Assembly (NCBI RefSeq): GCF_003600625.1
Contig: NZ_CP032489.1
Location: forward strand, 2,480,001 to 2,544,000
Source of the DNA: Arachidicoccus soli
Lineage (GTDB): Bacteria > Bacteroidota > Bacteroidia > Chitinophagales > Chitinophagaceae
Length of the DNA: 64,000 nucleotides
Direction of reading: 5' to 3'
Below are positions 9,190-25,667 of this stretch, piece by piece. The notes below the pieces were generated by a model. That model was not told where the DNA came from and ran no database searches. It worked only from the letters and a program-made list of their open reading frames with translations. Position numbers and translations under genes: made by a program. Position 1 is the first letter of the stretch. Every line of letters begins with the position of its first letter.

Positions 9190-10323
9190 TTAAAAAGGCA
9201 ATTTATTTAATTCAATCTCCCTCTGAATATAATCGATAGCAGCCCCTATCGTTTTTATATTATTCCGAGTGGAATATTTAAGTGTACGATTATACAGAAA
9301 CTCATAGACCCTTTTTAGAAAAAGCCTTAGAATGTTAATATAAAAAGCAAGAGAATAAATTTTAATTTTTGCATCTGAAAATATTATTTTTCTAAATTTG
9401 AAATCATACACCATTATATATGCATATAGATAAGAATAATTAAACTTATATTGACTCTCACTATCTCCACAATTTTTAAGACTATTTAGTAGAGATTCTG
9501 CCCAAATAGTTTGACCCGTCCAATATCTTGGGATAAAATTTGGCCATGAATTTAAAACATTTTTTGGCAAGTGCTTTACGTCTTCGATTTTAGCTATATG
9601 CTTGTGTAAAACACCCAAACCTCCAGTACTGCTTACACTCTTACCACTTATAATAATAGGAATATCTAAGTATGTAAATGAACTAACAAATTTAATTAAT
9701 GCAATTGCATTTGCCATATCAGGGCTTGAGGCAGGAAAAAAACTACCACAATTTTGATATATTCTATCCAAAATTGTATGATGGACTATACCATGATATA
9801 AGCAAGGAAGTTTTAACATGCTCGTTCCTCCTTTGTTTAAAGAATATTTTAATGCAACTTCTGAATCGATGGATTTTGTCCCATAATTAAACGAAGAATA
9901 ACTTAATATCCCAGAAGCATTTTTATTCAAAATATTTTTCTGCATGCCGGGCCAACTATAAGCAGCCTTTCGAGTTTTTAACACACTAATATTTTGCTCC
10001 TTCATCCATCTAACGGTATTTGTAATAATAGGTAACACTCCATCATCATCCCCTATAAAGCATATATATTCACCAGTTGCATTTGCAACAGCCAAATCAG
10101 AATTCTTAATAACTGATAGTTCTCCTGGGCAATAGATATATTTTAAATTTTTGCAACTAGCATATTTCGGGTCTAAAAGGAATTGAACCGTTTCGGCATT
10201 GTTATCACTATTATCATGAATTACTAGCTCCATATCCTTATCATTAAAAGCAATAAGTGCTTCAATCAAGAGATGCAATGTTCTACTTCTATTCTTTGTA
10301 GGTACAACTATACTTAGTAACAT
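9190..10323 (-). CDS. Family 2 glycosyltransferase
   Basis: A 377-residue protein with a GT2 N-terminal domain: LSIVVPTKNRSRTL at 3-16, the nucleotide-site VIHDNSD at 34-40, and FIGDDDGV at 89-96, whose Asp run D92-D94 is the metal/donor site. The C-terminal 200 residues are less conserved and rich in aromatic and basic residues. It starts 5 bp after the Wzx stop, which implies tight co-expression. Substrate unknown. Confidence 0.82.
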   Translation of the reverse strand: MLLSIVVPTKNRSRTLHLLIEALIAFNDKDMELVIHDNSDNNAETVQFLLDPKYASCKNLKYIYCPGELSVIKNSDLAVANATGEYICFIGDDDGVLPIITNTVRWMKEQNISVLKTRKAAYSWPGMQKNILNKNASGILSYSSFNYGTKSIDSEVALKYSLNKGGTSMLKLPCLYHGIVHHTILDRIYQNCGSFFPASSPDMANAIALIKFVSSFTYLDIPIIISGKSVSSTGGLGVLHKHIAKIEDVKHLPKNVLNSWPNFIPRYWTGQTIWAESLLNSLKNCGDSESQYKFNYSYLYAYIMVYDFKFRKIIFSDAKIKIYSLAFYINILRLFLKRVYEFLYNRTLKYSTRNNIKTIGAAIDYIQREIELNKLPF

Positions 10324-10327
10324 ATTC

Positions 10328-11824
10328 TTATTTTTTCTGAAATTTGAATAAACCCAAATATCCTGATATATCTGCTTTAGCTAAAAAACATTTTAATAAA
10401 ATGAACAATATAATAAAAGCTGAAAAAGCAAGTTGAAAAATAACTAAAACTATACTTTTTGAAAAAGGTATTCGAGAGAAGATAAAGCCTAAACCAAAAG
10501 CAACCAATCCCGGGTAAATTATTTTTTGCAAAAACGTTTTAAATCCGTGTTTATCTTTAATATAAAATTTATTTACATAATAAAAGTATATGGGAGTTAT
10601 AATTATCTGTACTGTAGTCCAAGTGACTGCAGCACCTAAAGCCCCATATTTACGAGTAAATATCCAATATCCTGGAATTGTAAGAAATAAGCTGAATATG
10701 CCTACAATATTATTTAACTTAGTTTTTCCTAATGAAAGGCAAATATTAAAAGGCAATAAGTTAGATGTTAAAGCGCACATCCCTAAAGTGAGGACAGGCA
10801 CATACATATATGACTTATCAACTATAGATTCCTTCCTCATCCAGATTAAAATAATTTCTTTGGAATTAAAAAACAAAATTGCAGCAATCGAAAAGATTAC
10901 AATTGATATAAATAATATCAATTTATTATATAAAAGTAAAACATCTTGCAATTTATTTTCTGAAAAAAGTGCTGTAAATCTTGGGCGAATAGCAATATCA
11001 ACTGGATTAATAAGAGTCATTAGGATATAAGTCAAAGTCATCGCAATCGTATAATATCCTAATTGATCAATAGGCAAAACCTTACTTATTGTCAATTTAT
11101 CTAGTTGCGTGTTAACGCTAGCAACAAGAGAAATTAACAACATTCCAGCCGCGAATTTCCAAACCCTTTTAATTACTTTATTGTCTATCCTAGGTTTAAT
11201 AAAAAAAGGTAAATCTCTACTAATATTTCGAATTAATACCATTCTTAAAGTAACAGCATAAATAATAGTACAAGATATTTGCCATAAGAAAAAGGCGCTT
11301 AAGCTTCTAAAATAATAAATAGGGATAATTACCAATGCATTTCTAGCAATACTCCATAAAATCTGATAAAAATTTGCTTTTACTTGTTTTTCTAAACCTA
11401 ATAATCCTCCCATATAAAACTGAGCTAGCATTTGAAACGCAACTCCAATCCCAATTATTCGTAAATAGAAAATTAATTCAATGTTAGAATATTTAGTATC
11501 ATTAAGCATATTCTTTGCTATAACGCCAGCAAAAGAATAGATTAAACCTATTATAATAATAGCAATAAAAAAATAACAAGTTTCCAAAGTAGACAGAATC
11601 TTGACCAAATCCTTTTTAGAATTAGTTTTTATCGCAAATTCACGTGATAAAGTAGCAGTCATTCCAGCATCTAACATTGCCATCAATCCAACTATGATTA
11701 GTGTAAAACTAATAATAGAATAGCTTTGTATGCCTAGAAAATAGATATAAAGTGGAATAAAAACAAAATTGGAGATTAAACTCCAACCTTTTCCAACAAT
11801 ATTTGCAATAATATTTTTTTTCAT
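10328..11824 (-). CDS. Wzx-type oligosaccharide flippase (MATE/MOP superfamily)
   Basis: A 498-residue protein with about 12-14 membrane segments and the polysaccharide-transporter pattern: an N-terminal GKGWSLISNFVFIPLY segment, the SREFA motif near residue 63, and paired six-helix halves. It should translocate undecaprenyl-linked repeat units to the periplasmic face. Downstream it abuts a GT2 gene; upstream there is a GNAT gene 18 bp away. The strongly A+T-rich coding sequence, shared by the block from about 5.9 to 15 kb, is typical of serotype-variable EPS cores that move between strains. Confidence 0.88.
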   Translation of the reverse strand: MKKNIIANIVGKGWSLISNFVFIPLYIYFLGIQSYSIISFTLIIVGLMAMLDAGMTATLSREFAIKTNSKKDLVKILSTLETCYFFIAIIIIGLIYSFAGVIAKNMLNDTKYSNIELIFYLRIIGIGVAFQMLAQFYMGGLLGLEKQVKANFYQILWSIARNALVIIPIYYFRSLSAFFLWQISCTIIYAVTLRMVLIRNISRDLPFFIKPRIDNKVIKRVWKFAAGMLLISLVASVNTQLDKLTISKVLPIDQLGYYTIAMTLTYILMTLINPVDIAIRPRFTALFSENKLQDVLLLYNKLILFISIVIFSIAAILFFNSKEIILIWMRKESIVDKSYMYVPVLTLGMCALTSNLLPFNICLSLGKTKLNNIVGIFSLFLTIPGYWIFTRKYGALGAAVTWTTVQIIITPIYFYYVNKFYIKDKHGFKTFLQKIIYPGLVAFGLGFIFSRIPFSKSIVLVIFQLAFSAFIILFILLKCFLAKADISGYLGLFKFQKK

Positions 11825-11842
11825 TTAATTATTTATACAATT

Positions 11843-12358
11843 TCAAAAGAGCTTACCACTATATTCTAAAAAATTAATCTTTTCATTCTTGAAATTAAAT
11901 GTCAGTGTAAATATTTGATCTGAATTGAATAAGGGGAATAGTAAATATTTTTGTTCCACTATCTTCCAACCAATTCTTGTATAAAAGTTTAAAAGCGACT
12001 TTTTACAAAATAAAAATCCCATATCTTCATTTTCAATAAGATATCTATTAATAAAATTCATTAAAACTGTCCCATTCCCTTTACCAGACTGAATAGTGCA
12101 AACATTGCCTAGCCCTCTAACATTTCTCTCCTTATTATTCAAAATTATTTTGCAGTCAACTAAATTCAGATACGCAATATTTCTATAAGATTGGTCTTTC
12201 ATTAAAACGTGTATGTCATTTTCCTTTAAATTTGACTTTATCCAATCCTTATGTTGCACAATACTATAATTCCAAACTTGTTTTTTTATTTTACAAATTT
12301 CATCAAGTTGATCAAGGGTCAAATCTTTATGTCTTATAAATTGAAAATACATCAACAA
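11843..12358 (-). CDS. GNAT-like N-acetyltransferase
   Basis: A 171-residue protein with the acetyl-CoA pyrophosphate loop of the GNAT fold (VCTIQSGKGNGTVLM, residues 86-100; G94-x-G96), followed by a helix and a C-terminal FYTRIGWK segment typical of GNAT motif B. The Arg/Gln usually found at the start of the loop is replaced by Ser91. No signal peptide. Beside two DegT aminotransferases it could acylate the new amino group of a nucleotide-linked amino sugar, as PseH does, but a role on another substrate cannot be excluded. Confidence 0.65.
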   Translation of the reverse strand: MLMYFQFIRHKDLTLDQLDEICKIKKQVWNYSIVQHKDWIKSNLKENDIHVLMKDQSYRNIAYLNLVDCKIILNNKERNVRGLGNVCTIQSGKGNGTVLMNFINRYLIENEDMGFLFCKKSLLNFYTRIGWKIVEQKYLLFPLFNSDQIFTLTFNFKNEKINFLEYSGKLF

Positions 12359-12383: not shown

Positions 12384-12893
12384 TTATGTCCTTTTTTTAA
12401 TCAATTTGGCAGGAACACCTCCCATAATACTATATTGAGCCACATCTTTGGTAACTACAGAATTAGCAGCAATAATAGAACCTTCGCCAATTTTCACACC
12501 TTTTGTAATTGTACAATTAGCGCCAATCCACACATCGTTCTCAATATAAATTGGAGCTTCAATTATCCCTTGATTTACCATAGGAATATCCAAACTAGAA
12601 AACCGATGATCAAATGCAACAAAAACACATGAAGGTGCAATCATCACATATTTCCCAATAAATATTCCTACAGTTTCGCCATTTAATGTACAATTTTCTG
12701 CAATAGAACTAAAATCACCCATTTCAAACTTACCTTTTATTCTAACATTTGGACTAATAGATGTATTAGAACCAATGATACAACCATTTTTTCTATAATA
12801 GTTAACTCTCCATTTACAAAAAGTATAAATTCCTGGTAATGCTAATAAAAAAGATTGATATAAGTTGCTTAAGAGAAAAGCCATTCTTTTCAT
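12384..12893 (-). CDS. Hexapeptide-repeat acyltransferase (left-handed beta-helix)
   Basis: A 169-residue O- or N-acetyltransferase. After an N-terminal hydrophobic helix (residues 7-25) come left-handed beta-helix repeats (about 35-160) with hexapeptide turns such as IGSNTS, IENDVWIGANCTI, IGEGSIIAANSVV, and the common C-terminus SIMGGVPAKLIKKR. The residues around FDHRFS fit the catalytic-His loop of the maltose/galactoside acetyltransferase group, which includes WcaF. It lies 10 bp after the DegT gene and probably acetylates a sugar of the repeat unit; position unknown. Confidence 0.85.
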   Translation of the reverse strand: MKRMAFLLSNLYQSFLLALPGIYTFCKWRVNYYRKNGCIIGSNTSISPNVRIKGKFEMGDFSSIAENCTLNGETVGIFIGKYVMIAPSCVFVAFDHRFSSLDIPMVNQGIIEAPIYIENDVWIGANCTITKGVKIGEGSIIAANSVVTKDVAQYSIMGGVPAKLIKKRT

Positions 12894-12903
12894 TGTAGTT
12901 AAT

Positions 12904-13989
12904 TTAAAATTTGAGTCCTATTTCATTATCGTTTAGCCACCAACCACAAGGTAAGGCAAAGAATCTCTCGTAAAAATCTTCTACTCCTGGAAGTAAATTA
13001 TTATTATTAAAAACTGAATAATAATAATTTGGCAAATGAACACCAGATGCATAATATCCTAATTCTCGGAATTTATTAATATATTCTATCTTTCTTTTAC
13101 TTCGCATCCCAAAAATCCAATAGTTTGGATTCTGATTCAAATCATTCTCTAAAAGTATCTGAATATCATCAAACTTATTCCTTAATTCGATTTTCCATTT
13201 CTCAGCATTTAACTCTTGCCTTTTTAATAATGAAACAATATTTTCCAATTGTAGACTTCCAATATAACTATTCATTTCATTCATTGTAAATCCATAGCCA
13301 GGAATTGAAATATCTGAATCTTTGCTTATTTCTCCATTAGGATTTCTAAATATCTTTCTATCAACGCCTAAATCTCGAATAAGGTTTGCCTTTTGTTGCA
13401 ATATAAAATCTTTGCAAGCTATTGCCCCACCATCAACCGTATTGGGCAACCGTACGGTTTGAAAGGAAAAAACGGTTATATCTGTACCAACATTTCCTAA
13501 AAATTGTCCTTTGTATTTGGAGCCAAAGGCCTCTATTGCATCGTCAATTACCATAATACCATGTTCATTGGCTATTGCATTAATTTCATCAATATAACCA
13601 ACGTAACCACAATGATGATTGTGAATAATTGCTTTGGTTTTATTTGTGATTTTAGTTTTTACACTTTCGGGATCTAAAGTTCCTCTGTGCGGATCAATAT
13701 CTGCCCAAATTAAAGTAGCCCCCAATGAAGCTGCGGGTTGATTTGAAGCTAGGCAACTCATTGGAGAAGCTATAATTTCATCTCCCGGCTTTATATCAAT
13801 TGTTTTTAATGCCACCAACATGGCCGCTGAAAATGAATTTACAGAAGAAATTTCTGAGCATTGGGTAACCTTCTTAAGATCTATTTCGAACTGTTTGCCA
13901 TATTTCCCGTATGCAAGCGATCCTGAGTGTAAGATATTACTTAACTCTGGCAGTTCTTCGGGCATATAGGGTTTATATAATGGAATCAT
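12904..13989 (-). CDS. DegT/DnrJ/EryC1-family aminotransferase homologue lacking the PLP lysine
   Basis: A 361-residue fold-type I protein of the sugar aminotransferase family, clearly homologous to its tandem neighbour at 13991-15079. In the family the PLP Schiff-base lysine lies in an SF/SL...K...T..GG motif. Here the stretch is FSFQTVRLPNTVDGG and the lysine position is Arg180 (codon CGG at 13450-13452); the paralogue has Lys182. The PLP-ring Asp of the VIDDAIEAF region (D150) is present. Loss of Lys blocks normal transamination. Some family members with His instead (ColD) are 3-dehydratases, but I know of no Arg form. It may be a non-catalytic partner of the neighbour, act in a different way, or be dead. 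It starts 2 bp after the neighbour's stop, so both are made together. Confidence 0.85.
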   Translation of the reverse strand: MIPLYKPYMPEELPELSNILHSGSLAYGKYGKQFEIDLKKVTQCSEISSVNSFSAAMLVALKTIDIKPGDEIIASPMSCLASNQPAASLGATLIWADIDPHRGTLDPESVKTKITNKTKAIIHNHHCGYVGYIDEINAIANEHGIMVIDDAIEAFGSKYKGQFLGNVGTDITVFSFQTVRLPNTVDGGAIACKDFILQQKANLIRDLGVDRKIFRNPNGEISKDSDISIPGYGFTMNEMNSYIGSLQLENIVSLLKRQELNAEKWKIELRNKFDDIQILLENDLNQNPNYWIFGMRSKRKIEYINKFRELGYYASGVHLPNYYYSVFNNNNLLPGVEDFYERFFALPCGWWLNDNEIGLKF

Positions 13990-13990
13990 A

Positions 13991-15079
13991 TTACCAACCC
14001 CTTTTAATTACATCAACAATTCGTTCCCTATCCTCTTGGCTAACCCACCACCCACAAGGTATATGAACCATTTTCTCATAAAATTTATCAAAAACGGGTA
14101 AGTCGGTTTGTGACTCTGCAAATAGAGAATGACGATCATTTCTTAAATGTAATTCAGAGGCGGAAATACCATTTTCATTCATCATTCGTATAAAACCTTC
14201 ACGGTTATCTACTTTCATCGTATATAGCCAATAAGAAGGTTCAGTATTCTCATTATATTTTAATAATTTTACACCCGGAATCGATTGAAGACTTGAATCA
14301 AAATATTTACCATTTCCTATATATTTATTTACGACTTCTCTTATGTGCCTCATTTGTATGATACCTATAGTTGCATTCACATTATTCATATGATATTTGT
14401 ATCCTGGAAATTTAATATCATTTTCTAATCTGGGCAATTTTTTATCGAGTCCAAACCATCTTAAAAGTTTTGCTTTATTATATTGCGCCTCCTTTTTTAC
14501 AGTTAGAAATCCACCATCAACTGTTGTCATATGTTTAATAGCTTGCAAAGAGAAAACAGTATAATCTGAATTTGAACCAACAGGAGAACCATTATATTTT
14601 GCACCCAAAGCATGCGCGGCATCTTCTATTATTGGAATATTATATTCATTAGAAATCTTATCAAATTCGTCCATATCACACACCATCCCCGCATAATGTA
14701 CTAACATTATAGCTTTTGTCCTTGATGTAATTTTACTTCTTACACTTTGAGGGTCTAACAGACCAGTATGCGCAGTAACGTCCGCCCATACAACTTTAGC
14801 ACCAACTAATTTAATAGCGACATTTGTTGGTTCTGCTGTTAGAACCGTACTAATAACCTCATCATCCTCTCCTACCCCTGCCAACAAAAGTGCAATATGC
14901 AAAGCAGCAGTTCCAGAATTTAAAGATACTGCGTAAGGATTGTTTACATATTGTGAAAAAAGTTTCTCAAATTCATACACTTTTTCTCCCTCAGCAACAT
15001 AACCGCTATAAATGACTTCCTCTAAAGCTGGCATCAACTCCTCAGGATTAGGAAAAAAAGGTTTTACAATTGGTATCAT
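13991..15079 (-). CDS. DegT/DnrJ/EryC1-family sugar aminotransferase
   Basis: A 362-residue PLP enzyme expected to aminate a nucleotide-linked keto sugar, using glutamate as donor. The PLP lysine is K182 in FSLQAIKHMTTVDGG (176-190); IEDAAHALGAKY (151-162) supplies the ring-stacking and Asp153 contacts; NSGTAALHIAL (54-64) binds the phosphate. Upstream and 10 bp away is the CapE/FnlA-type dehydratase, whose product is a UDP-HexNAc-4-ulose, so this enzyme probably makes a UDP-4-amino-4,6-dideoxy-HexNAc as PseC does. The two acyltransferase genes downstream could then acylate it. This route is inferred from gene order. Confidence 0.9.
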   Translation of the reverse strand: MIPIVKPFFPNPEELMPALEEVIYSGYVAEGEKVYEFEKLFSQYVNNPYAVSLNSGTAALHIALLLAGVGEDDEVISTVLTAEPTNVAIKLVGAKVVWADVTAHTGLLDPQSVRSKITSRTKAIMLVHYAGMVCDMDEFDKISNEYNIPIIEDAAHALGAKYNGSPVGSNSDYTVFSLQAIKHMTTVDGGFLTVKKEAQYNKAKLLRWFGLDKKLPRLENDIKFPGYKYHMNNVNATIGIIQMRHIREVVNKYIGNGKYFDSSLQSIPGVKLLKYNENTEPSYWLYTMKVDNREGFIRMMNENGISASELHLRNDRHSLFAESQTDLPVFDKFYEKMVHIPCGWWVSQEDRERIVDVIKRGW

Positions 15080-15088
15080 TTGTAGATA

Positions 15089-16114
15089 TTATTTATTTGC
15101 TAATTCATTTCTAACATAATCTAATGTCAATAAAAGATTCTTTGTCTCTTCTACATTTAACCTATGGGTATTGTCTGAGTTATATTCCTTTTCCATCAAT
15201 TTCGGTCCACCCGTCTGGATATATTTTGTATAATTCAAATCTCTAAAATCAGCAGGAACTCTGTAAAACTCACCCAAATCTTCTGCTTTAGACATTTCTT
15301 CTTTAGAGCATAAGGTTTCATATTTTTTTTCACCATGCCTTTCTCCAATTATTTTGATTTCATTATTTGCATTAAATAACTCTTTCAACGCTTCTGCTAA
15401 GATTTTTATTGTAGTTGCAGGAGATTTTTGCACAAAAATGTCTCCCGGGTTAGCATTTTCAAAGGCAAATAAAACTAATTTGACAGAATCATCTAAAGAC
15501 ATCATAAATCTTGTCATCTCTGGATTGGTGAGTGTAAGTGGCAAGCCTTCTTTAATTTGCTTTATTAATAAAGGGATAATAGAACCTCTTGAACACATAA
15601 CATTTCCGTAACGTGTAGCACAGTAAACACCATCTATCTTTTTAACTCTGGCATCTCTTGCTTTAGCAACTGCAATCTTCTCCATCATTGCCTTAGACAT
15701 GCCCATCGTATTAATTGGATATACCGCTTTATCAGTACTTAAAACAACTACCTTTTTAACTCCATTATCTGCTGCTGCCTCCAAAACATTTTCGGAACCA
15801 AGAATATTAGTTTCAACTGCCTGCATGGGATAGAATTCACAAGAGGGGACTTGCTTTAAAGCTGCGGCATGAAATAAATAATCAACTCCCGCCATTGCGT
15901 TATTTATACTTTTGAAACTTCTTGTATCCCCAATTACAAAGTTGAGTTTGTCATTTTTATACTCTATGCGCATATCTTCCTGCTTCTTTTCATCTCTACT
16001 GAAGATTCTAATCTCTTTTAATTCGGAGTTCAAGAATCCTCTCAACATTGCATTTCCGAATGAACCAGTTCCACCGGTAATCATTAATACTTTATCTTTA
16101 AACATATTTTTCAT
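15089..16114 (-). CDS. UDP-HexNAc 4,6-dehydratase/5-epimerase (CapE/WbjB/FnlA type)
   Basis: A 341-residue soluble extended SDR. The NAD(P) loop is ITGGTGSFG (12-20). The active-site region is LSTDKAVYP (125-133) followed by M137-x3-K141, where Met replaces the usual Tyr of the YxxxK pair; that substitution marks the CapE/WbjB/FnlA subgroup, which converts UDP-GlcNAc to the 2,6-dideoxy-L-arabino-hexos-4-ulose. In FucNAc pathways CapF and CapG follow, but here two DegT aminotransferases follow, pointing to a 4-amino sugar instead. The lack of membrane segments separates it from the large CapD/FlaA1 proteins. Confidence 0.88.
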   Translation of the reverse strand: MKNMFKDKVLMITGGTGSFGNAMLRGFLNSELKEIRIFSRDEKKQEDMRIEYKNDKLNFVIGDTRSFKSINNAMAGVDYLFHAAALKQVPSCEFYPMQAVETNILGSENVLEAAADNGVKKVVVLSTDKAVYPINTMGMSKAMMEKIAVAKARDARVKKIDGVYCATRYGNVMCSRGSIIPLLIKQIKEGLPLTLTNPEMTRFMMSLDDSVKLVLFAFENANPGDIFVQKSPATTIKILAEALKELFNANNEIKIIGERHGEKKYETLCSKEEMSKAEDLGEFYRVPADFRDLNYTKYIQTGGPKLMEKEYNSDNTHRLNVEETKNLLLTLDYVRNELANK

Positions 16115-16143: not shown

Positions 16144-17448
16144 TTATAAACGACCATCTACCAGATTCCTATCCACAAAAGCTTTAGCATCAAATATTAC
16201 CGCATTCTTATCTTTATATTCCCGGTAATTAATAGTTTTAAATTCCTCGTGTGCAACTGCTATGATTAAGGCTGCATAATCTGTTTGATTCTCTAAAGAA
16301 GCGATAATATTGACTCCATATTCGTGTTTGACTTCTGATTTGTCAGCCCAAGGGTCATAGATATCTACTTCCAAACCAAATTGTTGTAGCTCTTTATAAA
16401 TATCTACCACTTTGGTATTGCGCACATCGGGGCAATTTTCTTTGAAGGTAACACCCAAAATTAATGCTTTCGCACCTTTGATAGCGGTATGGCCTTTTTG
16501 AATCATTAATTTCACCACTTTACCGGCTATAAAAGCAGCCATCATATCATTGACTCTTCTGCCAGAGAGAATGACTTGGGGGTGGTAGCCCAATTGGGTA
16601 GCCTTATGTGCCAAGTAATAAGGATCCACACTGATACAGTGACCACCAACGAGCCCCGGTTTGTACTTTAAAAAATTGTATTTGGTGCCAGCCGCATCCA
16701 ATACGTCATTGGTATCGATACCTACGCGGTCGAAGATTAAAGCCAGTTCGTTTACAAATGAAATATTGACATCCCGTTGTGCATTCTCAATTGCTTTGGA
16801 AGCCTCTGCCACTTTGATGCTCGGTGCCAAATGTGTACCAGCTGTAATAATTGTTTTGTATAAGTTATTTACCTCTTCTGCAATTGCAGGTGTAGAACCA
16901 GAGGTTACTTTTTTTACGGAAGTGAGGGTATGTACTTTGTCACCTGGGTTGATACGTTCGGGGGAATATCCAACGAAGAAATCCCGATTAAATTTTAAGT
17001 TAGAAAATTTTTCCAAAACAGGAACACAATCTTCTTCAGTGCAACCGGGATAAACAGTAGATTCATAAATTATGGTATCTCCTTGTTTAATCACTTTTCC
17101 TAGCATTTCCGATGCTTTTAATAGGGGTGTTAAATCGGGGGAATTATATTTATCAATGGGAGTTGGTACTGTAACAATAAATATATTGGCTGTCTTCAAA
17201 ACTTCTAAGTCATTGGAGCAAATTAGGCCGGAAGCAAAGTCGTTATTTTTTGCTACTTGAAGATGCCTATTTAGTTTTTCAAGATCCGCTTCTTGGGTGC
17301 GGTCTTTACCGGCATTTAGTTCCTCTACTCTATCTTTACTGATATCAAAGCCTATTACCGGGAAGTGGGCTGCAAACTCAATGGCTAAGGGAAGGCCTAC
17401 ATAACCGAGGCCGATGATGGCTATTTTTTTATTTTGAGGCGTGGGCAT
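16144..17448 (-). CDS. UDP-N-acetylhexosamine 6-dehydrogenase (TviB/WbpO/WbpA type)
   Basis: A 434-residue UDP-sugar dehydrogenase that oxidises C6 of a UDP-HexNAc to the uronic acid with two NAD. The Rossmann motif is IIGLGYVGLP (11-20); the central domain has the conserved K218/N222 region (EASKAIEN); the catalytic cysteine is C271 in VGGHCISVDPYY. FKENCPDVRNTK in the C-terminal domain is typical of the UDP-HexNAc members rather than UDP-glucose dehydrogenases. It lies between wzc and the CapE-like gene. It gives the polymer an acidic sugar, consistent with a GH56-like enzyme that would act on HexNAc/uronate polymers. Confidence 0.93.
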   Translation of the reverse strand: MPTPQNKKIAIIGLGYVGLPLAIEFAAHFPVIGFDISKDRVEELNAGKDRTQEADLEKLNRHLQVAKNNDFASGLICSNDLEVLKTANIFIVTVPTPIDKYNSPDLTPLLKASEMLGKVIKQGDTIIYESTVYPGCTEEDCVPVLEKFSNLKFNRDFFVGYSPERINPGDKVHTLTSVKKVTSGSTPAIAEEVNNLYKTIITAGTHLAPSIKVAEASKAIENAQRDVNISFVNELALIFDRVGIDTNDVLDAAGTKYNFLKYKPGLVGGHCISVDPYYLAHKATQLGYHPQVILSGRRVNDMMAAFIAGKVVKLMIQKGHTAIKGAKALILGVTFKENCPDVRNTKVVDIYKELQQFGLEVDIYDPWADKSEVKHEYGVNIIASLENQTDYAALIIAVAHEEFKTINYREYKDKNAVIFDAKAFVDRNLVDGRL

Positions 17449-17660: not shown

Positions 17661-20048
17661 TTATCGACCGAATAAACCCTTCAAACGCTTCCAAAGGTTT
17701 TTCTTCGTTACTTCTCCGTAACCATAACCGTAGCCGTAACCATATCCATATCCATAACTATTTTGCTTTTTAGAATCGTTGAGTACCACCATCAAATTAC
17801 TTAATTTTTTATTGAGGTAAATATCATTGACGATATTCAATTGTTCTTTAAAGGTATAATTGTAGCGTACTACATAGAGGCAGGCATCAGCCAATTGGTT
17901 AAGCGTAAATACGTCTGCTACCTGACCTACCGGTGAAGTATCTACAATGATATAATCAAATTGTTGTTTCAATTCGGTAAATAGCTGGGTAATACGTGGA
18001 CTTAAAATCAGCTCCGCCGGATTGGGCGGAATAGGGCCTGCACCAATAACAGATAGATTCTCTACTTCAGAAACCTGCATTAAGAGGTCAGTAACCGTCA
18101 ATTTATGGTTAATAACATAATTAGTGATACCATTTTCAGTAGTCATGCCTAGGCCCTTGACTAATTTGGGTTTGCGGATATCGAATTCCAAAATCGCCAC
18201 TTTCTTGCCTGTGAGTGCTATACTAGCACCTAGGTTCGTACAAAAGAAAGTCTTTCCTTCGCCTGACATGCTGGAGGTAGAGAGAATCACCTGGATATCT
18301 TTGTCGATAGCCGCAAATTGCAGGTTGCTGCGCATCAGACGGAACATTTCCGCAACAGGTGTCCGAGCTTTGTCTTTGACTACTAAATTGTGCTCTGTTT
18401 CCGCATGGGCAATTTCCCCCAAAATAGGCACATTGGTTTTCTCCGTGATATCTTTTTGCAAACGCACTTTATCATCTAATAAGCCAGCACCATAGATCGC
18501 AGCAAAAGGTAGGATCAATCCCAATAAGAAGGCGGCCAAAAAAACAAGTCCATGTTTAGGGCTAACAGGACCATCGCTAGCAGCGGTATCTACGATGGTA
18601 CGGGAATTGGCCACCGTAGCCGCTAAAGAAAGTTGTGAAGCTTCTTTTTGTTGTAACAGGAAAGAATAGAGCCCTTCCTTAATCGCTTGTTGCCTTTGAA
18701 TCTCCAGTAATTGCCTTTGCACTTGTGGAGCGCCCTGTAAACGGGTTTGAAATTGTTGGTAATTGCCGTTTAAGTCTTTTTGAGTAACAGCAATACCTTG
18801 TTCAATATTACTTAAGTTTTCTGTAATGCTTCTTCGTACATCTGCAATGGAGGCATCTAAATTTTTAATAAGTATATTGGAAGGCTGCACAGTTGTCAAT
18901 TGTTCTTTTCTCCTTAATTGCAATTCGTTGAATTTATCCACCAAGGCATTTAAGGTAGGGTCTTGAATACCCAGAGAACTTGGAACCAAGCTATATTTGT
19001 TTCCCGGAGTATTGACATAGTCCTGTATAGATTTTAATACATTAGCTTGTACGCTCGCCTGTTCTTTTTGTTTATAAAGATCAGTAGCCTGTGAATAAAA
19101 AGCCTGCACATCGCTTGATACATCTGTGATTTGGTTTTGTTGCTTGAAGTCCGCCACTTTTTTCTCTACACCACTCAATTCCTGCACCAATTGTACCAAG
19201 CGGGCATTGATAAAGTTGATGGTATTGGTAGAAATCTGGTTTTTGTCCTCGATACCCTCCTGATTATACACAGCTACCAGTTCGTTGATGATATCGATAC
19301 CCTTTTGCGGCACAGCATCATTCATAGTGATAGTCAATGCAGAGGCATCCTGATTGACTGCGGCGATGGTCATTTTTTTATTATATGCATCCGCGTAGAT
19401 GCGCAGGTCATGGAACAGAAGTTCAATTGTTTCCCCTGTTTCCAAAGCCGGTAATGCATTGACCATAAAACTGCCATAAGATCGATTGATAGGTTGACCA
19501 AAATTGTATACAGTAGAACCGCCATTATCTGTGAGTTCAAAGCTTTGACCGTTCTTTATTTTTATGGTTACTAAATCTTTGAGTTTGTAAGCAGCTGAGT
19601 CCAGGTGGAGTATATGCACGGCAATCGGTGCTTTATCGCCATAGGTTTCAGAAGATTTGAAAGTGCCTTTTACAAAGATAGAAGTCTGTAATTGAGGCAT
19701 TTTGGCGAAGACACGCTGTAGAAGGCTCTGGCTCTTTAACACCTCAATTTCATTATCGATATTTTGCTGAGATTTAAATAAGCCCAGGTCAGCAAAAGAA
19801 TTACTTCCTGATCCGCTACCTCCTCCCATCATGCCACCGATATCCGGGCCTTTTTTGTCGTCGCGGATTAAAAGTTCAGTACTGATACTATATTCTGGTG
19901 TGGCATAGCGTAAATAGAGAAATGCAGCGATCATGCATAACAGAACTCCCAACACAAACCAATACCATTTATGGGTGTATTTAGCTAATTCTGCTTTTAA
20001 ATTGATGCTTTCACCTGCTGACTCCTGATCCTGTATATTTTTACTCAT
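17661..20048 (-). CDS. wzc: Polysaccharide co-polymerase/tyrosine autokinase (Wzc-like)
   Basis: A 795-residue inner-membrane BY-kinase that controls chain length and links polymerisation to export. Order: N-terminal membrane helix (about 31-51), Wzz-type periplasmic domain with long coiled-coil stretches (about 60-500), second helix (about 508-528), then the cytoplasmic kinase. The Walker A motif SSMSGEGKT is near residue 595, Walker A' (VAILEFDIRKP) about 30 residues later, and Walker B is YIIVDTSPVG. The C-terminus has an unbroken alternating Tyr-Gly run of at least seven Tyr before GEVTKK, the autophosphorylation cluster. Signal relay to Wza and Wzy is expected from the family. It lies 58 bp after wza. 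Confidence 0.95.
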   Translation of the reverse strand: MSKNIQDQESAGESINLKAELAKYTHKWYWFVLGVLLCMIAAFLYLRYATPEYSISTELLIRDDKKGPDIGGMMGGGSGSGSNSFADLGLFKSQQNIDNEIEVLKSQSLLQRVFAKMPQLQTSIFVKGTFKSSETYGDKAPIAVHILHLDSAAYKLKDLVTIKIKNGQSFELTDNGGSTVYNFGQPINRSYGSFMVNALPALETGETIELLFHDLRIYADAYNKKMTIAAVNQDASALTITMNDAVPQKGIDIINELVAVYNQEGIEDKNQISTNTINFINARLVQLVQELSGVEKKVADFKQQNQITDVSSDVQAFYSQATDLYKQKEQASVQANVLKSIQDYVNTPGNKYSLVPSSLGIQDPTLNALVDKFNELQLRRKEQLTTVQPSNILIKNLDASIADVRRSITENLSNIEQGIAVTQKDLNGNYQQFQTRLQGAPQVQRQLLEIQRQQAIKEGLYSFLLQQKEASQLSLAATVANSRTIVDTAASDGPVSPKHGLVFLAAFLLGLILPFAAIYGAGLLDDKVRLQKDITEKTNVPILGEIAHAETEHNLVVKDKARTPVAEMFRLMRSNLQFAAIDKDIQVILSTSSMSGEGKTFFCTNLGASIALTGKKVAILEFDIRKPKLVKGLGMTTENGITNYVINHKLTVTDLLMQVSEVENLSVIGAGPIPPNPAELILSPRITQLFTELKQQFDYIIVDTSPVGQVADVFTLNQLADACLYVVRYNYTFKEQLNIVNDIYLNKKLSNLMVVLNDSKKQNSYGYGYGYGYGYGYGEVTKKNLWKRLKGLFGR

Positions 20049-24004: not shown

Positions 24005-24826
24005 ATGTAGGTACTTCAAACGATTGAAGAAGTTCATAAAATATTTCCGACAAATGGAAGTAGTCCAATTTTAGTAACTTTTGATGACTTTCGCGATTGG
24101 GTTTGTAAGTACGATAGGACTTCCAAAAATTTGTTTAATGAACTAATTGCAGCAAAATTTGCAGAAATATGGGGTATTATGACTCCAGAAATTTCATTAA
24201 TCAAAGTAAAAAAGGAGCATGTTCCTTCGGATAAATATCCTACAATTCAGTCAAGTTTATTTAATAAAGAATGTTTTGGATCTCTATATTTGGAAGGTTC
24301 TAAGGAAATTGATTTGTCATTAATTTCATTATTTGAAGAATCTAGTTTTAGGGACAAACTATCCAATAGGGAAGATTATTTAAAAATAGCTCTTTTTGAT
24401 ATTTGGATTGCAAATGAAGATAGAAATCATAACAATTTCAACTTATTGCTTTTTGTCGCACCAAACAAAATGAATTTTTTCTACGCCATTGATCATGTAA
24501 ACATTTTTAATAGCAGTTATTTGAATTATGGGATTGCAGACCTAACGGAAGATGACTCATTAATAAAAACAGAATTGGCTAAAATTTTGTTTAAGAATTC
24601 TAAGAAGTTAACACAAATTGTGGATAGCTTAGTTGAAAATTTCTCTCTTCGCATACAAGAATGCTATAATAATCTTGATAAAATAATTGCGCTAACTCCT
24701 AATTCTTGGGGAATTGAGAAGGAAGAAGTTAAAGGGAAAATTGTTCAAAATTTGTTCACGGAAGAATGGGCGAAAAGATGCGAACGTAATTTTAGAGAGT
24801 TTATTCAGTCATTCATAATTAATTAA
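24005..24826 (+). pseudogene. HipA-like kinase gene with a stop at codon 2
   Basis: The reading frame of a HipA_2-type kinase runs from 24011, with VLQTIEEVHKIFPTNGSSP then FRDWVCKY and NLFNELIAAKFAEIWGI, to the stop at 24826. An ATG at 24005-24007 is in frame and in the right place, but the next codon is TAG (24008-24010). Kinase features, numbered from the TTG at 24131, are the catalytic-loop ANEDRNHNNFNLLL (94-107: D97, N102) and the metal-binding AIDHVNIF (D121). Possible rescue starts are TTG at 24131, which would lose the nucleotide-binding N-terminus, or a non-standard codon. It is followed after 1 bp by a DUF3037-like gene, its usual partner. Function in the family is not established. 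Confidence 0.7.
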
Positions 24827-24827
24827 T

Positions 24828-25667
24828 ATGAAACCTATTTATTCAATATTATATATAAATTTGAATACTACTTTAAATGAAAGAGTTAGTATAGGGGTCT
24901 TCTTGTCCAATGGAGAAAATAATAAATTTAAGCATTCATCAGAAAAACTTTTAGCTGTTAAAGGGCTGATGGAGCCGGAAAGATATAATTTGATAAAAAG
25001 TTATTTAAAATCGTTAGAAAATACTATAAATGTTATAGAAGATGCCCCTATTGGGATTACGTCCTTAAAAAGGGAATGGGTAACAGAAAGTTATATTGGG
25101 TACTTGTCAAAATATTCCAATAATTTAATTCAATTTTCAGAGCCAAAATATATTGACATAGAATTCAGTTTTGAAAATTTTAAAAGAGTTTTTGAAAAGT
25201 ATGTTTATGCCTACGAAATAAACTTAGAGATTATTCAGCACGAAAGTATTTACACTAAAGTAAAGAATATACTTTACCCCAAAATTGATACTCATGTAAA
25301 TTTGGACATGACGCTTAATTCTTCTCATTTTGAAAATTTATTTGCCCCTATTGAAGTCAACTTCATAGGCGTAAATGGGATTCCGGTAGCAGGACAAACA
25401 ATTGATTTCACGAAGAAGCATTACTTTTTAGAAAATGATATTACTAGATTTGTTTCATTAACAAAAGCGATTGAAATAGAAGATAAAAAACACAAAGGTC
25501 AGTACTATGTTTTAGGATGTGAACCCGAAACCAAAAATATGAAAAACCATTTACTATGGGAGCAAATTCGGGACTCAGAGTTTTTAGAATTTGTTGACAT
25601 TAATGAAGTCGGGGTTGTTGAAGAGTATATAGAAAAAAATAATGTTCGACCTTATTTTAATCCCTAA
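24828..25667 (+). CDS. DUF3037-like protein paired with the HipA-like kinase
   Basis: A 279-residue protein whose start (YSILYINLNTTLNERVSIGVFLSN) matches the DUF3037 opening pattern. DUF3037 genes often sit directly after HipA_2-like kinase genes, and here the gap is 1 bp. It has no signal peptide or membrane segment. It is longer than minimal DUF3037 proteins; the second half (about 115-279) is not recognised. The stop codon TAA (25665-25667) lies within the left inverted repeat of the adjoining insertion sequence, so the original last residues were replaced. Reading the flank beyond the IS suggests that the native protein ended only a few residues later. Confidence 0.65.
   Translation: MKPIYSILYINLNTTLNERVSIGVFLSNGENNKFKHSSEKLLAVKGLMEPERYNLIKSYLKSLENTINVIEDAPIGITSLKREWVTESYIGYLSKYSNNLIQFSEPKYIDIEFSFENFKRVFEKYVYAYEINLEIIQHESIYTKVKNILYPKIDTHVNLDMTLNSSHFENLFAPIEVNFIGVNGIPVAGQTIDFTKKHYFLENDITRFVSLTKAIEIEDKKHKGQYYVLGCEPETKNMKNHLLWEQIRDSEFLEFVDINEVGVVEEYIEKNNVRPYFNP

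Follow-up and report, generated by a model that had tools for sequence, protein, structure and literature searches.

A DegT gene pair in a polysaccharide cluster

The window, i.e., the whole stretch of 64,000 nucleotides analyzed here, carries two adjoining genes of the DegT family within a polysaccharide cluster on the minus strand (Table 1). In reading order, this cluster encodes a UDP-sugar dehydrogenase, a dehydratase, the Lys-type and Arg-type DegT proteins, a hexapeptide acyltransferase, a GNAT acetyltransferase, a flippase and a glycosyltransferase. A single base pair separates the stop of the Lys-type gene from the start of the Arg-type gene, and the two proteins are identical at 125 of 360 positions (35%, BLASTP). 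The preliminary description of this DNA had presented them as adjoining paralogues, the first with Lys182 and the second with Arg180 at the same site and an intact frame, and the reading frames, the alignment and the two codons bear this out. The site motif reads FSLQAIK(182)HMTTVDGG in the Lys-type protein and FSFQTVR(180)LPNTVDGG in the Arg-type protein. Both match the Pfam profile DegT_DnrJ_EryC1 (PF01041, cut-off 19.8 bits), with 296 bits for the Lys-type and 202 bits for the Arg-type protein, and neither reaches the cut-off of the PseC equivalog TIGR03588 (227 and 158 bits, respectively; cut-off 423.5). The solved structures closest to the Lys-type protein by sequence are AtmS13/AtS13 (4zwv, 4xau) and CalS13 (4zas).

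Table 1. Coordinates of the DegT gene pair, its key codons and the neighboring genes in the window
Feature	Position	Strand	Evidence or remark
Family-2 glycosyltransferase, same cluster	9190..10323	minus	family match
Flippase (Polysacc_synt/MatE), same cluster	10328..11824	minus	family match
GNAT acetyltransferase	11843..12358	minus	Pfam Acetyltransf_9, 26.4 bits (cut-off 25)
Hexapeptide-repeat acyltransferase	12384..12893	minus	best NCBIfam model WcaF family, 85 bits (cut-off 192)
Arg-type DegT paralogue, 361 aa, Arg180 at PLP lysine site	12904..13989	minus	ORF, Pfam, alignment
Arg-type residues 219-225, lid segment (seven columns that the Lys class is without)	13315..13335	minus	alignment
Codon CGG, Arg180	13450..13452	minus	Arg in 17/17
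Lys-type DegT paralogue, 362 aa, Lys182	13991..15079	minus	ORF, Pfam, alignment
Codon AAA, Lys182 (Schiff-base lysine)	14534..14536	minus	Lys in 17/17 partners
UDP-GlcNAc 4,6-dehydratase, FnlA/PseB kind	15089..16114	minus	FnlA 512 bits (cut-off 730); PseB 293 bits (cut-off 408)
UDP-sugar dehydrogenase, same polysaccharide cluster	16144..17448	minus	cluster reading

Two further features of the window were recognized by eye. Positions 17661-20048 (minus strand) encode a Wzc-like chain-length regulator/kinase whose C-terminus carries a run of YG repeats. At 24131-25667 (plus strand), an ORF that begins with TTG looks like the C-terminal portion of a HipA-like kinase; the next ORF is at 24828.

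Distribution and constancy of the pair

A scan of contigs with the Arg-type protein of the window returned three relatives, namely L009, L010 (an Alistipes) and L011 (a Niabella). A family search of 294 genomes (E ≤ 1e-30) was positive in 25: the window's genome and G280 had two matches each, and the other 23 had a single match (29-35% identity) with Lys at the site. A profile, A1, was run at E ≤ 1e-60 on sets of 396, 395, 395, 245, 70, 69, 69 and 59 genomes. These make 1,698 scans in total, with draws that overlap and are confined to the window's phylum (presumably Bacteroidota, judging from L010 and L011). Twelve distinct genomes were positive, the window's included, with exactly two matches in each. 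The Lys-class genes in these genomes have A1 E-values of 9e-69 to 8e-84, so that a comparable genome with the Lys gene alone should have appeared, in searches that are biased to Arg-protein queries and could miss Lys-only genes that score worse than 1e-60 or are more distant. Two distant pairs were also found, one on the Sphingomonadaceae plasmid CP099620.1 and the other in genome G1494.

The site was read in 17 Arg-type proteins, the window's included (15 from the main branch and 2 from the distant branch). All 17 have Arg, and all 17 partners have Lys. The preliminary description had proposed a search for Arg-bearing homologues beside a Lys paralogue, and had allowed that the Arg might be a singleton among close homologues that all carry Lys; it is the former situation that was found. 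The Lys gene lies 5' of the Arg gene, in the same cluster, in every case, and in 16 of the 17 pairs the spacing is -4 to +5 bp with start codons of our choosing. The exception is G280, where one gene lies between the two, by eye a membrane acyltransferase; this cluster (L056, 9292-12607) is a mosaic whose Arg and Lys genes belong to different sub-branches. All 17 pairs display what characterizes paired catalytic and non-catalytic paralogue enzymes, i.e., a constant gene pairing in which one member is without the catalytic residue. The frames of the Arg-type genes are open and full-length in 16 of 17. That of L011 is truncated by the contig end; its protein was counted for the site and excluded from the 16-row conservation analysis and the trees, and its Lys partner was excluded from the separate Lys tree.

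In viral contigs, 83 pattern stretches contained no relatives, and phage records gave five DegT matches at 26-28% identity. Plasmid matches amounted to 141 records, the best of which is the Sphingomonadaceae pair. Its Arg protein had no match in other plasmid records at E ≤ 1e-30; its Lys protein matched 144 records at E ≤ 1e-40, all except its own below 60% identity. This Arg-type protein is currently annotated as an aminotransferase, which its residues contradict.

Phylogeny and selection

In a tree of 58 rows, one clade (100/97) unites the 16 full-length Arg proteins and a second (97/92) the 17 Lys proteins, and the two are joined at 99/97, with an outgroup limited to 25 DegT rows and a warning of long branches from the tree program. 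Lys occupies the site in the 24 outgroup rows that match the Lys-site pattern; the remaining row, L001, has no pattern match. Each clade is divided at depth in the same way, with the Sphingomonadaceae and G1494 rows on one side and the rest on the other. It is likely, judging from this topology, that one old duplication gave rise to the Arg and Lys classes.

Within the main branch, the Arg and Lys trees conflict, and in G280 the Arg gene groups with that of G917 and the Lys gene with that of the window. Constraining either gene set to the grouping of the other was rejected (p-AU 9e-6 and 1e-42, with groups defined after the trees were seen). Tight co-evolution of the pair was consequently rejected, partners having been exchanged between lineages. 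These trees indicate that the pair is retained despite such exchange.

Estimated by a counting method, dN/dS for the Arg gene in three close pairs is 0.086, 0.042 and 0.084 (dS being near 1.8 in the third pair). The corresponding values are 0.057, 0.021 and 0.052 for the Lys gene and 0.031, 0.034 and 0.054 for a neighbor gene (the dehydratase, or the UDP-sugar dehydrogenase for G853/G1563). The evolutionary rate of the Arg gene is about 1.5- to 2-fold that of its Lys partner, yet selection on it is purifying, and the relaxed selection that the preliminary description had considered for the Arg paralogue is not seen. Because Arg is found in 17/17 and selection is purifying in the three close pairs, Arg180 is evidently neither chance nor a sequencing error. 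A decaying duplicate, a mutation or a sequencing error was conceivable when the first observation concerned a single copy; that explanation is refuted by these two results, dN/dS being 0.04-0.09, and the open, full-length frames likewise leave it with a negligible probability. The conserved, constantly paired Arg-for-Lys DegT subfamily is real. An Arg form had been called unfamiliar in the preliminary description, and still is: none was named in the literature searched, which comprised open-licence papers.

Active-site residues

Residue roles were taken from excerpts of the Spr1654 (PMC5936713) and Pcryo_0638 (PMC8040287) papers, by way of ArnB in their printed alignments and an alignment of our own. 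In all 17 Arg-class proteins, the Schiff-base Lys that marks the DegT aminotransferases is replaced by Arg. The His/Gln to O3' of the cofactor is gone as well (Glu in 13, Asp in 2, Ala in 1 and Asn in 1), as is the phosphate-loop Gly, which is replaced by Tyr in 10, Phe in 5, Met in 1 and Leu in 1. At the position of the donor-binding Lys/Asn (Lys241 of ArnB), 16 rows have Gly (10), Ala (4) or Ser (2), and one row has a gap. The Asp to N1 and the phosphate Ser are retained in 17/17, as in the aminotransferases; the phosphate Thr position is always polar (Asn 11, Ser 4, Thr 2), and the acid of the DGG motif is kept (Asp 11, Glu 6). H318, present in 16/16, was assigned as the sugar-flanking His by motif only, beyond the reach of the printed alignments used. 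The stacking aromatic is absent in both classes (Cys 17/17 and Ala 17/17). By sequence, the Arg protein is not a free-standing aminotransferase.

These lost transamination residues would suit a purely structural pseudoenzyme, which only stabilizes the Lys enzyme and in which Arg180 fills the empty PLP cavity and forms a salt bridge to Asp150; the invariance of Asp150 (17/17) and the acid that mostly replaces the O3' His agree with such an arrangement. We consider this explanation improbable, as a conserved pocket, described below, and a lid Arg that is invariant in the Arg class (R215, 16/16) would both be superfluous for mere stability. The lid Arg is also invariant in the Lys class, as R217. 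The latter aligns with Arg229 of ArnB; a direct alignment of the Arg protein with ArnB sets the lid differently. Arg229 binds the alpha-carboxyl of the donor, according to the excerpt of PMC5936713. Because the lid Arg is invariant in both classes, donor binding in the Arg class may be impaired and not abolished.

The flexible lid of the Arg class has seven columns more than its Lys-class counterpart; among them, G219-E220-I221 do not vary in any of the 16 full-length proteins. Lid conservation, compared with the overall value, is 0.743 versus 0.688 in the Lys class and 0.639 versus 0.627 in the Arg class. A relaxed Lys-class lid, as support for an asymmetric heterodimer, was dropped on account of this value of 0.743, which falls to 0.508 only if gap columns are scored zero.

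The pocket was represented by 17 positions, 14 with published roles and three added neighbors, with 309, 311 and 312 placed by motif. Its conservation in the Arg class is 0.732, versus 0.622 for random positions of the same protein (p 0.0008); in the Lys class, 0 of 20,000 shuffles were as high. Nine columns distinguish the classes, each class having a residue of its own there that is fixed or almost fixed. Eight of them (S75, C79, L80, S82, R180, N183, Y324 and A345) fall in segments drawn as pocket-lining, a clustering that is suggestive only, these segments having been drawn after the alignment was seen. Cys79 and Tyr324 were rejected as inventions of the Arg class, for Cys and Tyr occur there in two Lys-bearing outgroup rows (L014 and L015); both residues may be ancestral.

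Predicted structure

An AlphaFold2 model of the Arg protein, computed from eight sequences, has a pLDDT of 72 and a pTM of 0.77, with a poorly defined lid (residues 208-215 and 218-231 below 50). Its Foldseek neighbors include ArnB, perosamine synthase, CalS13 and AtmS13; the best 50 rows are all DegT-type enzymes, with TMq of 0.62-0.72 and, for many, an rmsd of 8-11 over the full length. By profile match and fold, the Arg protein belongs to the DegT/DnrJ/EryC1/StrS superfamily. As to its side chain, we conjecture that Arg180 contacts Asp150.

A possible two-subunit aminotransferase or a possible separate enzyme

Structurally characterized relatives are described, in excerpts of PMC5936713 and PMC8040287, as homodimers whose chain carries a catalytic Lys; their active sites are completed by the second subunit, a point also made in the excerpt of PMC8987622. 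Our proposal, which we rate at about an even chance, is that the pair forms a two-subunit UDP-sugar 4-aminotransferase, with the Arg chain as a non-Schiff-base subunit that retains its sugar site. This reading is favored because the Arg and Lys genes are paired in 17/17, Lys first. The dehydratase would provide a UDP-4-keto-6-deoxy-HexNAc, and the Lys subunit would carry PLP and aminate C4. The Arg subunit, a fold-type-I paralogue for which no Schiff base would be possible, would take the place opposite the Lys subunit at the DegT dimer interface, and its lid would contribute in trans to the active site of that subunit. Its own nucleotide-sugar pocket would be kept for a substrate or an effector, with Arg180 near the old cofactor residue Asp150. 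An acyl- or formyltransferase would cap the new amine last.

Counting against the two-subunit reading are partner exchange, which implies no tight co-evolution, and the pocket conservation of the Arg class, which fits a working enzyme equally well. A simple dead subunit is also disfavored by partner exchange and by the unrelaxed residues of the Lys chain. Lys228, the donor-binding residue, is invariant in the Lys class (17/17), and we take it to reach the site of the neighboring subunit, as the equivalent residue does in the DegT family. If so, in a heterodimer Lys228 would point into the site of the Arg chain, and a wholly dead Arg site would be unlikely. Should Lys228 act in trans, its constancy could be explained by a Lys homodimer or by a heterodimer in which the Arg chain retains sugar binding.

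The Arg protein could instead be an enzyme in its own right, a homodimer that shares its UDP-sugar with the Lys aminotransferase and whose step either precedes or follows the amination. It would form no Schiff base and would use either PMP bound non-covalently, as the ColD-type 3-dehydratases with His do, or no cofactor. Its conserved pocket and the class-distinguishing columns in the segments drawn as pocket-lining would be expected of such an enzyme, and with the Asp, the Ser and the polar Asn/Ser/Thr kept, binding of a B6 phosphate may still be possible. Two enzymes joined by a pathway would be compatible with partner exchange, and the unrelaxed Lys-class lid and Lys228 match what a Lys homodimer would show. 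However, an ordinary 4-aminotransferase should sometimes occur alone, and both genes are present in each of the 12 A1-positive genomes. The loss of the O3' His and phosphate-loop Gly, and the possibly ancestral origin of C79 and Y324, likewise weaken this explanation, as do several clusters with one acyltransferase-like gene in the stretch read (a non-exhaustive reading), by which a second amine is not implied. We regard a separate enzyme as possible, although rather doubtful.

The preliminary description had left the Arg paralogue as either a non-catalytic subunit or an enzyme with new chemistry. Constant pairing favors the subunit, the conserved pocket and unrelaxed Lys-partner residues favor a working site, and we make no choice between them. 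More broadly, and only tentatively, the Arg-for-Lys subfamily might keep a working nucleotide-sugar site and carry out a non-Schiff-base reaction, with B6 phosphate or cofactor-free, coupled to the Lys paralogue in all cases seen; it would then represent a new reaction type in this fold, or a two-subunit sugar aminotransferase with division of labor.

Among known systems, the Arg protein shares PF01041, the fold, the Asp to N1 and the Ser to the phosphate with the DegT sugar aminotransferases (ArnB, PseC, Spr1654, AtmS13/CalS13), whose clusters likewise contain a dehydratase and usually an acyltransferase. It differs from them in having Arg for the Schiff-base Lys, in being without the O3' His, phosphate-loop Gly and donor-binding Lys, and in a lid seven columns longer than its partner's. 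The 3-dehydratases ColD, E1 and SpnQ, in the dehydratase branch of the fold, also have the catalytic Lys replaced; in the excerpt of PMC8987622 the replacement is a His that serves as acid and base, whereas here it is Arg throughout, with a Lys paralogue beside it in 17/17. Besides Lys and His, Arg is a third conserved state of this site, and its link with a Lys paralogue, seen in two distant branches, would imply either new chemistry or an aminotransferase of two subunits. The pair is small and testable. The LCB1/LCB2 subunits of serine palmitoyltransferase similarly combine a PLP enzyme with a homologous subunit without the PLP lysine (PMC3794620, in excerpt), although they are eukaryotic, membrane-bound and of another family, and the complex proposed here is inferred. 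Trypanosomatid deoxyhypusine synthase, an unrelated enzyme, is activated by a catalytically dead paralogue (excerpt of PMC3663545) and, like LCB1/LCB2, serves as a precedent for the two-subunit reading.

Gene neighborhoods of the pairs

A dehydratase-like gene lies nearby in 16 of the 17 stretches read, with 13 of the short, FnlA-like form and three of the long membrane form (G853, G1595 and G1563); none was seen in the stretch read of G1494. Four of these (window, G853, G1595 and Sphingomonadaceae) were searched with Pfam and the rest were named by eye. An acyl- or formyltransferase-like gene is nearby in 15 of 17, called in 14 by a Pfam match at E ≤ 1e-3 and in one (G1405) by eye; the GNAT matches in L009, G917 and G665 are under the Pfam cut-off, and that in G1487 is at the cut-off. 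L010 has an ATP-grasp protein in this place, and the L011 stretch ends at the contig edge. Gene order varies: in the Sphingomonadaceae cluster the GNAT gene precedes the pair and the dehydratase follows it, in L010 the dehydratase also follows the pair, and the formyltransferase of G1494 is on the strand opposite to the pair. These neighborhoods are consistent with a cap being placed on the freshly formed amine, through reactions predicted for the encoded proteins.

Some neighborhoods contain additional genes. Formyltransferase-like proteins are encoded near the pair in two distant genomes (L071, 6492-7172; L073, 3239-3910, on the opposite strand), which suggests N-formyl amino sugars. In L072 (4593-7025), a hexapeptide acyltransferase and an AMP-binding ligase lie behind the pair, a further sign of unusual N-acylation. 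In L009 (4240-5938), the DegT pair and the GNAT gene are followed by what by eye are a FabH-like ketoacyl synthase and a FabG-like reductase, as though the cluster produced a particular acyl group to be attached to the new amine.
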